Source of the DNA: an uncultured Pelagibacteraceae bacterium
Lineage (GTDB): Bacteria > Pseudomonadota > Alphaproteobacteria > Pelagibacterales > Pelagibacteraceae
NCBI GenBank assembly: GCA_902574695.1
Contig: CACGON010000004.1
Coordinates: 1-64,000, forward strand
Direction of reading: 5' to 3'
Length of the DNA stretch: 64,000 nucleotides
Shown here: piece after piece, positions 22,041 to 39,079 of the stretch
Layout: each line of letters opens with the position of its first letter
Position numbering within the stretch: the stretch's first letter is position 1
Made by a program: the position numbers and the translations under genes
The notes under the pieces: model-generated
Told to the model about the DNA's origin: nothing
The model's input: only the letters and a program-made list of their open reading frames with translations
The model's database searches: none

Positions 22041-22105
22041 AAAGTTTATATTGAATACACCATGTAAAATTTCTTTTCATTTTTATTTTAATCCCACTTT
22101 TGGTG

Positions 22106-22135
22106 ATAGTTATCCACAACTATACACGATATAGT
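22106..22135. repeat. Nested inverted repeats ATAGTT-ATCCAC-AACTATA-CACGA-TATAGT containing a DnaA-box-like TTATCCACA
   Basis: Read directly from the GFA/umuD intergenic region; TTATCCACA at 22110-22118. Confidence 0.7.
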
Positions 22136-22195
22136 TTTCAATGTTCACGTTTTGATTCACTTTTGATTCAGTTACAGACTCAAAATACAACCTAT

Positions 22196-32944: not shown

Positions 32945-32978
32945 AAATAGGGCAATATGTAAACATATCGCCCTATTT
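32945..32978 (-). terminator. Rho-independent terminator/attenuator downstream of proteorhodopsin
   Basis: AAATAGGGC-A-ATATGT-AA-ACATAT-C-GCCCTATTT hairpin (9+6 bp, one A/C mismatch) followed by a T-run on the minus strand. Confidence 0.88.
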
Positions 32979-33767: not shown

Positions 33768-33793
33768 AAAAAACTCCCTCTTTAGTTAGTTTT

Positions 33794-33813
33794 TATAGTT
33801 TATATAAACTATA
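33794..33813. repeat. Perfect 20-bp palindrome TATAGTTTATATAAACTATA upstream of proteorhodopsin
   Basis: Identical to its reverse complement, checked base by base. Confidence 0.92.
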
Positions 33814-33831
33814 GCAGATATTAATATCTGC
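33814..33831. repeat. Perfect 18-bp palindrome GCAGATATTAATATCTGC abutting the previous one
   Basis: Identical to its reverse complement, checked base by base; starts at the base after the first palindrome. Confidence 0.92.
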
Positions 33832-33984
33832 CAAAGTTAAGGGGTTAATTACCAAATTACAGTAGTTTATAGAAGACTTTTTTACCTCTTATTTATGTTG
33901 ATTTTATTGACTTTTTGAAATTAAATGCAACTTGTTGCTTAAATATCAAGCAATTAAGGCTGCTTTGAATCAAACAAACTAATT

Positions 33985-35874
33985 ATGAGTTTTAAAGAAA
34001 TTTACGAAAAATCAATAAAAAAACCTGAGGAATTTTGGAGGTCGTTAGCCGATGATATCTTTTGGTTTAAGAAACCATCGAAAATTTTAAATAGTACTAA
34101 ACCACCTTTTTATAGATGGTACGAGGATGGTGTCACTAATACTTGTTATAATGCTCTAGACTTGCACATTCAAAATGGTTTAGGAGACAAGATTGCATTA
34201 ATTTACGATAGTCCAATCACTGGAAATAAGTCAAAGTTCACTTTTAAAGAGTTAAAAAATAAAGTTTCTAAGTTCGCAGGTGCGCTTAAGAACCAAGGTA
34301 TTGGTAAAGGTGATAGGGTTGTCATTTATATGCCTATGGTACCTGAGGCAGTCATTGCAATGTTAGCTTGCGGTAGAATTGGTGCTATACACTCCGTAGT
34401 TTTTGGAGGATTTGCATCTAATGAACTTGCAAGCCGTATTGATGATAGTAAAGCAAAAATACTAGTTACAGCTTCATGTGGTTTTGAACCTGGAAGAACT
34501 GTTGAATATAGACCATTAGTTGATGGAGCGCTTAAATTAGCTAAACATAAATTAGAGAAAGTTATTTTTTATCAAAGAAAAAATCACGAGATTAAATTAA
34601 ATTCACCTTTAGAAATCAGTTGGAATGAAAGTCTTCAAAATGCAAAAGATACAGATTGTGTAGAGATGAATTCAAATGATTATGCTTATATTCTTTATAC
34701 ATCTGGAACAACGGGTATTCCAAAGGGGATTGTGAGAGACATTGGTGGTCATATCGTAGCCCTTAAGTGGACTATGAAAAATATTTATAACATAGATCAA
34801 GATGATGTCTGGTGGTCAGCAAGTGATATTGGATGGATTGTCGGACATTCTTATATAGTTTACGCACCATTATTTAAAGGATGTACAACTTTATTGTTTG
34901 AAGGTAAGCCAGTTGGAACCCCTGATGCTGGTGTTTTTTGGAGAGTAATTTCTGAGTATAAAATTAAATCTTTATTCACTGCACCAACTGCTTTTAGAGC
35001 AATTAAAAAAGAAGATCCAGATGGAAAATTTTTTTCTAAATATGACTTAAGTTCTTTTAAATCATTATTTTTAGCTGGAGAAAGAGCTGATCCTGATACA
35101 ATTAAATGGGCAGAAAATTTATTAAAAGTTCCAGTAATTGATCACTGGTGGCAAACTGAAACTAGTTGGGCTATTAGTTCAAACTGCACAGGTATTGAAA
35201 TGATGAAAACTAAATATGGATCAGCTTGTAAAGCTGTCCCAGGATATGATGTAAAAATTATTAAACCCGATCAAACTATCGCTAAAGCAAATGAAATGGG
35301 AGATATAGTTGTAAAACTTCCACTTCCTCCTGGTACCTTTCCAACTTTATGGAATGCAGATAAGAGATACGAAGATAATTACATGTCTAATTATAAAGGA
35401 TATTACCAAACCTATGATGCTGGGCATATTGATGAAGATGGTTACATTTGGATTATGTCACGTACCGATGATATTATAAATGTTGCTGGTCATAGACTTT
35501 CAACTGGTGCTATTGAAGAAGTATTATCAGAACATAAGTCTGTAGCTGAATGTGCGGTAATTGGAATTGCAGACAAGCTTAAAGGTCAATTACCGATTGG
35601 ATTGTTAACTTTAAAAGCAGGAGTAGCTCAAGATAATGAGGCTATTTCAAAAGAATGTATTAAAATGATTAGGGATAAAATTGGTCCAGTTGCTGCTTTC
35701 AAATCAGCTATAGTAGTAAAAAGACTTCCAAAAACAAGATCGGGTAAAATTTTAAGAGGCACAGTAAGAAAAATTGCAGATAAGGAAGACTATAAAATGC
35801 CAGCAACGATTGATGATCCTAAAATTTTGGATGAAATTAAGGAAGAATTAATCAAAAATAATATTTTAAAATAA
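33985..35874 (+). CDS. prpE: propionyl-CoA synthetase / acyl-CoA synthetase (AMP-forming)
   Basis: YILYTSGTTGIPKGIVRDIGGH, SCGFEPGRTVEYRPLVDGAL, SRTDDIINVAGHRLSTGAIEEVL, PKTRSGKILRGT. Confidence 0.88.
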   Translation: MSFKEIYEKSIKKPEEFWRSLADDIFWFKKPSKILNSTKPPFYRWYEDGVTNTCYNALDLHIQNGLGDKIALIYDSPITGNKSKFTFKELKNKVSKFAGALKNQGIGKGDRVVIYMPMVPEAVIAMLACGRIGAIHSVVFGGFASNELASRIDDSKAKILVTASCGFEPGRTVEYRPLVDGALKLAKHKLEKVIFYQRKNHEIKLNSPLEISWNESLQNAKDTDCVEMNSNDYAYILYTSGTTGIPKGIVRDIGGHIVALKWTMKNIYNIDQDDVWWSASDIGWIVGHSYIVYAPLFKGCTTLLFEGKPVGTPDAGVFWRVISEYKIKSLFTAPTAFRAIKKEDPDGKFFSKYDLSSFKSLFLAGERADPDTIKWAENLLKVPVIDHWWQTETSWAISSNCTGIEMMKTKYGSACKAVPGYDVKIIKPDQTIAKANEMGDIVVKLPLPPGTFPTLWNADKRYEDNYMSNYKGYYQTYDAGHIDEDGYIWIMSRTDDIINVAGHRLSTGAIEEVLSEHKSVAECAVIGIADKLKGQLPIGLLTLKAGVAQDNEAISKECIKMIRDKIGPVAAFKSAIVVKRLPKTRSGKILRGTVRKIADKEDYKMPATIDDPKILDEIKEELIKNNILK

Positions 35875-38188: not shown

Positions 38189-39079
38189 ATGAATATGGAC
38201 GATTTTTATACATTAGAGGATAGAGGAATACTTTACGTAAGCGGTTCAGATGCTAAAGATTTCCTTCAAAATGTAATTACAAATAATATTGACAAAATAA
38301 ACGACAAATCTTCTATTTTTTCTTCTTTATTAACCCCCCAGGGTAAATATCTTTTTGATTTTATTATAATTAAACATAAAAATGGTTTTTTTTTGGACTG
38401 TGAAAAAAATCAAATTTCAGATTTGTTTCAAAAACTAAGTTTATATAAACTTAGATCAAAAGTGGAGATTTTGAATTTAAGCAATGAATTTGTAGTAGCT
38501 TCAATTAATAAAGAAAAATTTTTAACATTTGAGAATGCAGAAAATAAAGAGGGTTATACTATTAAGTTTAGAGAAGATCCTTTATTTTTAGACCCAAGAA
38601 ACTCTCAACTTGGTGCAAGATTAATAATTAATCTTGAAAAACTTTATTTATCAATAAAAAAACTTAATTTAAAACCTTCTAAGTCAAATAAGTATTATGA
38701 GCTTAGTCATAGACTTGGGATACCCCAGGTAGAATGCTCGATTATGCAAAATAAGATTTTTGGTATTGAGTGTAATTTTGAGGAGTTAAACGGAATTGAT
38801 TTTAAGAAAGGTTGTTACGTTGGTCAGGAAAACACAGCTAGAATAAAACTTAAAAATAAACTTTCTAAAAGACTCTTGCCTTTTAAAGTTATCGAAGGAA
38901 AGATTGAGATTAATGATGATATTTACTTAAAGGATGAAAAGCTGGGTAAAATTTTGATAGGTAATATCTATCCATTTGGATTGATCAAATTTAAAAATAA
39001 TGATTTTGATTTTTCATTAAATTATAAGTGTAAAGAAGCAATAATAAAGTTTTACAAACCTGATTGGTTAGTAAATTAA
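38189..39079 (+). CDS. ygfZ: folate-binding YgfZ/GcvT-like protein
   Basis: GRGILYVSGSDAKDFLQNVITNNI-like start and the KKGCYVGQENTARIK signature. Confidence 0.9.
   Translation: MNMDDFYTLEDRGILYVSGSDAKDFLQNVITNNIDKINDKSSIFSSLLTPQGKYLFDFIIIKHKNGFFLDCEKNQISDLFQKLSLYKLRSKVEILNLSNEFVVASINKEKFLTFENAENKEGYTIKFREDPLFLDPRNSQLGARLIINLEKLYLSIKKLNLKPSKSNKYYELSHRLGIPQVECSIMQNKIFGIECNFEELNGIDFKKGCYVGQENTARIKLKNKLSKRLLPFKVIEGKIEINDDIYLKDEKLGKILIGNIYPFGLIKFKNNDFDFSLNYKCKEAIIKFYKPDWLVN

Follow-up and report, generated by a model that had tools for sequence, protein, structure and literature searches.

The two abutting palindromes that lie upstream of the proteorhodopsin (PR) gene in a SAR11 genome probably sit side by side in a single short, structured 5' leader of the PR mRNA, in which the first palindrome (P1) would be protective and the second (P2) would provide a separate signal. 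Judged by comparison with relatives, P1 is an RNA hairpin whose stem is maintained while its sequence varies freely, and P2 appears to be a conserved recognition element of PR expression, which is as far as we commit ourselves on this dyad. The DNA analysed, hereafter the window, is a stretch of 64,000 nucleotides from an uncultured Pelagibacteraceae bacterium.

Two palindromes abut in the spacer upstream of the PR gene

The PR gene (Table 1) is divergent from an acyl-CoA synthetase gene (prpE, or prpE-like) that begins at position 33985 on the + strand, and the spacer between them is 217 bp long with 25.3% GC. Read in the PR sense, the leader runs from P1, GCAGATATTAATATCTGC (33831-33814), through P2, TATAGTTTATATAAACTATA (33813-33794), to AAAAACTAACTAAAGAGGGAGTTTTTTATG, whose first A is also the end of P2. 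A preliminary description of this DNA had reported the abutting palindromes at 33794-33813 and 33814-33831, and we found their sequences, coordinates and perfect dyad symmetry to be correct. It had also held such an adjacent pair unlikely to arise by chance. Dinucleotide shuffles of the window contained on average 1.5 palindromes of at least 18 bp and 0.5 of at least 20 bp, and the real window contains five of at least 18 bp, so that a lone palindrome is unremarkable. Two of at least 18 bp within 40 bp, however, occurred in none of 60 shuffles, in agreement with the preliminary description.

Table 1. Features of the PR gene and its upstream region, in window coordinates.
Feature	Position	Strand	Basis
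PR gene, 256 aa	32997..33767	-	Pfam PF01036 Bac_rhodopsin, E = 1.6e-51
P3, possible hairpin AAAAACT (33794-33788)/AGTTTTT (33775-33769)	33769..33794	-	weaker evidence
Shine-Dalgarno-type GAGGGAG of PR	33774..33780	-	read from sequence; near-invariant in alignment A1
P2, sequence-conserved dyad	33794..33813; conserved core TAGTTT-ATAT-AAACTA 33796-33811	-	core self-complementary across three genera
P1, 5'-terminal RNA hairpin GCAGATA-TTAA-TATCTGC (PR sense)	33814..33831	-	pairing kept, sequence variable in relatives
Projected PR transcription start	33838 (about)	-	aligned TTTGnTA (anchor + 18) from HTCC7211; leader ~71 nt
Probable PR promoter: GTCTTC 33877-33872; TTTGnTA with -10-like TAATTA 33851-33846	33846..33877	-	113 distinct Pelagibacter sequences

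PR loci were gathered from the genus Pelagibacter (g1), from sister genera and from families of the order; many of them are near-copies, and counts of sequences are therefore not counts of events. Alignment across SAR11, the check that had been proposed for this element, separates the two palindromes: P1 shows compensatory changes, and P2 shows conserved half-sites and a symmetrical centre.

Both dyads lie within the PR transcript

In a metatranscriptomic dRNA-seq study (PMC5069720, Table 2), the bacteriorhodopsin gene PB7211_669 of strain HTCC7211 is entered at 529616-530457 on the + strand. Since this entry is 842 nt long and the entries without start-site reads are divisible by three, the start column must give the transcript start, a reading that fits the glcB start given 162 nt upstream in the same paper. 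We took genome G095 to be HTCC7211 on the strength of matching coordinates: its PR coding sequence (529690-530457) ends exactly as the PB7211_669 entry does, and the coordinates of the other genes listed in that table fall at start codons or leaders in G095. The HTCC7211 PR start, for which the evidence is environmental reads that were recruited to this single strain, precedes the ATG by 74 nt and P1 by 5 nt, meaning that both dyads are transcribed. Starts projected onto 107 relatives leave 3-7 unpaired nt, followed by P1.

The promoter motifs in Table 1 are spaced consistently with the HTCC7211 start. Several other strong promoters of this strain have a CTTG-type -35 sequence, in place of which the PR promoter carries the conserved GTCTTC and TTTGnTA; a scan with the E. 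coli promoter consensus gave no match at the PR start. We examined 23 promoters of HTCC7211 that are highly transcribed, and PR was the only one at which a hairpin lies close against the transcript 5' end (-13.3 kcal/mol, z -3.6). Elsewhere in this set, comparable folding energy was found only for the glcB riboswitch leader and for an apparently internal site, the ATP synthase subunit c entry.

P1 keeps its pairing while its sequence changes

Directly upstream of P2, the stem sequences of relatives are quite different: 88 distinct Pelagibacter leaders contain 46 distinct 5' arms of P1, with pairing kept. RNAalifold applied to the sequence-based alignment A1 found P2 only, because P1 sequences are too divergent to be aligned by sequence, and tests based on chimeras and on a fixed geometry were used instead. 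The 26-nt P1 region has a mean minimum free energy of -8.9 kcal/mol, compared with -3.4 kcal/mol for chimeras made from the halves of two different sequences, and a median fold z of -3.6, compared with +0.3 for a control region 40 nt further upstream. In the fixed-geometry test, which involves neither folding nor filtering, 306/392 cells were paired in the ATAT-core group, for which 1000 whole-arm shuffles reached 277 at most, and 199/312 in the AAATTT group, for which the shuffle maximum was 184; the geometry is the best of 70 tried, a bias that the shuffles leave in, and the energy test is independent of it. When the relatives were aligned by structure (subset A2), both partners had changed in six of the eight P1 pairs, and the signal vanished once the partner was shifted by one or more columns, but A2 was pre-filtered for pairing and its row L020 is without two linker bases so as to fit the geometry, which makes it an illustration rather than an independent test.

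In the window, P1 can be extended by two pairs, to about 33812-33833. P1 loops of relatives are as a rule not self-complementary; the perfect palindrome of the window is thus due to a loop that happens to be TTAA, and its symmetry is accidental. The P1 loop of genus g5 (L215-L224) contains a sequence similar to the Shine-Dalgarno sequence of PR, namely GAGGGAG or a slight variation of it.

P2 is conserved in sequence and in central symmetry

Among PR loci for which 95 nt or more of upstream sequence was available, the P2 dyad (GTTT-core-AAAC) with a self-complementary core is present at the equivalent position before the PR start in all 171 from three genera: 135/135 loci of Pelagibacter, 24/24 of g7 and 12/12 of g5. 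Loss of palindromicity in close relatives, which had been named as an observation that would speak against the element, was therefore not seen. The arms TAGTTT/AAACTA are almost invariant with almost no compensatory change, and the six arm pairs do not vary at all in A2. Departures consist of one-sided changes of the outer pairs, mainly in g5, where outer pairs are lost, and in some loci of Pelagibacter and g7; the commonest arm change, TAG to TGG, retains a G-U pair. Five cores were found (ATAT, AAATTT, ATATAT, ATTAAT and AATATT), all of them self-complementary. Mapped onto a maximum-likelihood tree built from 163 PR genes, the core has changed at least eight times; this figure is a parsimony minimum, and the tree was a quick one in which many branches are weak. 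Self-complementarity would be expected in one of four A/T-only tetramers if these were unconstrained. Asymmetry was seen in the P2 centre of a single g9 genome (L272) and in the palindrome of one f2 genome (L266).

These properties suggest that P2 may be a second, independent signal that is read by sequence and symmetry, and we put about even odds on its acting as operator-like DNA or as sequence-specific RNA. The DNA reading, in which P2 is the operator of a homodimeric protein just downstream of the PR start and P1 an unrelated RNA hairpin beside it, is plausible without being probable. It agrees with the invariance of the arms, which distinguishes P2 from the adjoining P1, and with the centre of the dyad: the four innermost bases of so small an RNA hairpin are unable to pair, and an ordinary hairpin consequently leaves unexplained a symmetry kept in 171/171 leaders of three genera through five cores and at least eight changes. 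The weakness of P2 as an RNA hairpin points the same way: its folding energy is between -1.6 and -3.1 kcal/mol at 37°C and between -4.1 and -5.5 kcal/mol at 15°C. The fold predicted for the leader of the window itself has no P2 hairpin; there the 5' end pairs into P2, extending P1. As for what is expected of a dimeric operator, the half-sites are conserved and symmetrical but their spacing is not constant, the gap being 4 or 6 bp (TAGTTT-N4/6-AAACTA), and a shift of 2 bp is beyond the tolerance of most dimers. The distance from P2 to the promoter is not fixed either, and no helical phasing was found with respect to the promoter or the Shine-Dalgarno sequence, both spacings being unconstrained. 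An operator must also be reconciled with a single P2 site per genome, hence no regulon, with the lack of a regulator among the neighbouring genes examined and with the description of PR as constitutively expressed (PMC3090418).

The RNA reading, which we consider a serious candidate short of a probable one, makes P2 either a hairpin by the ribosome site or the target of an RNA-binding protein or trans-acting RNA, controlling PR translation. P2 is transcribed, abuts P1 and lies just upstream of the Shine-Dalgarno sequence in all lineages seen, including distant genera in which other palindromes occupy this place (g12 and g15 have TTTGTTTAAACAAA, and most of family f2 has TAATTTTATAAAATTA). The 16- and 18-bp forms would both be explained by a loop fixed at 4 nt on a stem of either 6 or 7 bp, and the G-U pair retained in the commonest arm change is in keeping with a stem. 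On the other hand, an RNA hairpin has no need of a self-complementary loop, the stem is weak (the f2 palindrome barely folds, with 0 kcal/mol at 37°C) and the distance to the Shine-Dalgarno sequence varies from 14 to 24 nt. Of the two proposals in the preliminary description, that the pair are operators bound by dimeric regulators or that they are hairpins in tandem in the 5'-UTR, the hairpin holds for P1, while P2 has an operator-like pattern and may equally have a role as RNA.

The leader is specific to PR

A covariance model of the leader (R1) matched in 15/15 Pelagibacter genomes searched, once per genome and always at PR; in g7 the matches were weaker and again always at PR, and all other matches had E values of at least 0.08. 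We rejected P2 as a genome-wide operator, since there is one copy per genome and no further copy was found. A perfect palindrome of 20 bp at 38435-38454 of the window, CTAAGTTTATATAAACTTAG, has 14 bp in common with P2; it lies within the coding sequence of a GCV_T-domain protein and, given this location and its weak covariance-model score, was discarded as a second P2 site.

No Rfam 15 family reached its gathering threshold on the leader. A survey of SAR11 RNAs published in 2009 (Meyer et al., PMC2704228) lists spacers whose GC content is 26% or more, and the word rhodopsin is absent from it; the GC content of the PR spacer is below this floor, so that the leader would have been filtered out. 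Other RNA-discovery papers that we examined make no mention of rhodopsin. The open-access papers examined contain no account of the leader, which does not prove its novelty.

P3 and the remaining explanations

Downstream of P2, the loop of P3, a predicted A/U-rich hairpin, holds the Shine-Dalgarno region. P3 is invariant within the genus and is therefore without covariation support there; in g7 and g5 its flanks are GAAAAC/GTTTTC, still complementary with a shifted register.

It seems improbable to us that the leader serves to attenuate transcription or to terminate a unit lying upstream. P1 with a short T tract gave the one terminator-like match of our scan, against 0.8 expected, and in Pelagibacter P1 is followed by TAGTTTATAT with no T run, unlike an intrinsic terminator, in which a G/C-rich hairpin leads straight into a run of U; moreover, the upstream neighbour prpE is divergent, leaving nothing to terminate. 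Such a function is favoured by g12 and g15, in which a run of seven or eight T separates a hairpin from the GTTTAAAC palindrome and the Shine-Dalgarno sequence. These loci (L148, L149, L150, L152, L153, L155 and L156), with their hairpin-like repeat, T run, TTTGTTTAAACAAA and PR Shine-Dalgarno sequence, resemble a terminator or an attenuator that may be accompanied by an antiterminator; the repeat was not among the results of the consensus scan of L150.

A metabolite riboswitch or temperature sensor is more improbable still. Other SAR11 leaders are riboswitches (PMC2704228, PMC5069720) and the Shine-Dalgarno sequence is placed inside the predicted P3 hairpin, but the loop and stem sequences of P1 are unconserved and thus offer no evident ligand pocket, the Rfam search was negative, and the predicted accessibility of the Shine-Dalgarno sequence is nearly constant from 5 to 37°C. 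Finally, the idea that the palindromes arose by chance because the DNA is rich in A/T, for which the number of palindromes in shuffled windows could be invoked, has practically no chance of being right, as it is refuted by the conservation of P2 in every Pelagibacter locus and by the pairing that P1 keeps despite sequence change.

Other features of the window

The preliminary description had also pointed out a weaker dyad near prpE (33935-33953). This dyad does exist in the window, but its structure is not conserved: across 83 relatives the median fold z was +0.36. Upstream of prpE, a strongly conserved block with the consensus TTGATTTTACTnACTTTTTAAAATTAAATACAA (33902-33934, + strand) is probably the prpE promoter, although it has more conserved positions than a promoter needs. 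Just past the PR stop codon is an inverted repeat, GGGCaATATGT/ACATATCGCCC (32950-32978, - strand), that probably acts as a terminator; in relatives, too, PR is followed by repeats of this type. The window also contains the SAR11_0636 sRNA (RF01827) at 22102-22192 on the - strand, with 89.7 bits.

Discussion

We propose that the PR mRNA begins with a leader of about 71-75 nt, which would comprise some 5 unpaired nt, the P1 hairpin, the P2 dyad, a linker and the Shine-Dalgarno region. It is known that 5'-terminal stem-loops protect mRNAs from decay beginning at the 5' end (PMC3997798), and P1 is most likely a hairpin of this kind, which would shield the 5' end of the abundant PR mRNA from 5'-end-dependent decay. 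Its stem could also serve another purpose, such as pausing or holding the 5' end away from the ribosome site. P2 would add the second signal, independent of the first. A more specific version, in which P1 and P2 form a composite leader proper to PR, with an RNA stabiliser beside a one-site-per-genome operator or RNA signal for an additional factor, is offered tentatively and with rather low confidence.

The E. coli ompA and papA mRNAs are examples of 5'-terminal stabilising stem-loops (named in the reference list of PMC3997798). Like them, P1 stands a few nucleotides from the mRNA 5' end (5 nt in HTCC7211; a projected distance in the window), keeps its pairing while its sequence is free, and belongs to a highly expressed gene; unlike the E. 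coli stem-loops, it abuts a second, sequence-constrained dyad. P2 in turn resembles CIRCE, the operator of HrcA in heat-shock leaders with the consensus TTAGCACTC-N9-GAGTGCTAA, in being a conserved inverted repeat between the start site and the Shine-Dalgarno sequence that is readable as DNA and also transcribed. It differs from CIRCE in sequence, half-site gap, target gene and its single site per genome, and we rejected an identification with the HrcA operator because the consensus does not match. The structured RNAs reported in SAR11 by Meyer et al. (SAM-V, rpsB, rpsL, ffh, pntA, bablM, rhtB and SAR11_0636; PMC2704228) are, like the PR leader, conserved structured intergenic RNAs of the same organisms, and bablM and pntA also have tandem stems; none of them precedes a rhodopsin gene.

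A filter on GC content can overlook structured RNAs in SAR11 genomes. SAR11 bacteria are among the most abundant cell types of the ocean, PR is the commonest gene there for a light-driven proton pump, and the PR of SAR11 is a main route of microbial light harvesting. The leader is found in every Pelagibacter PR locus examined, among bacteria that have very short spacers and few regulators, and so gives a concrete entry to the control of PR. If the composite leader is real, it would mean that SAR11 has dedicated control of PR, a gene regarded as constitutively expressed.
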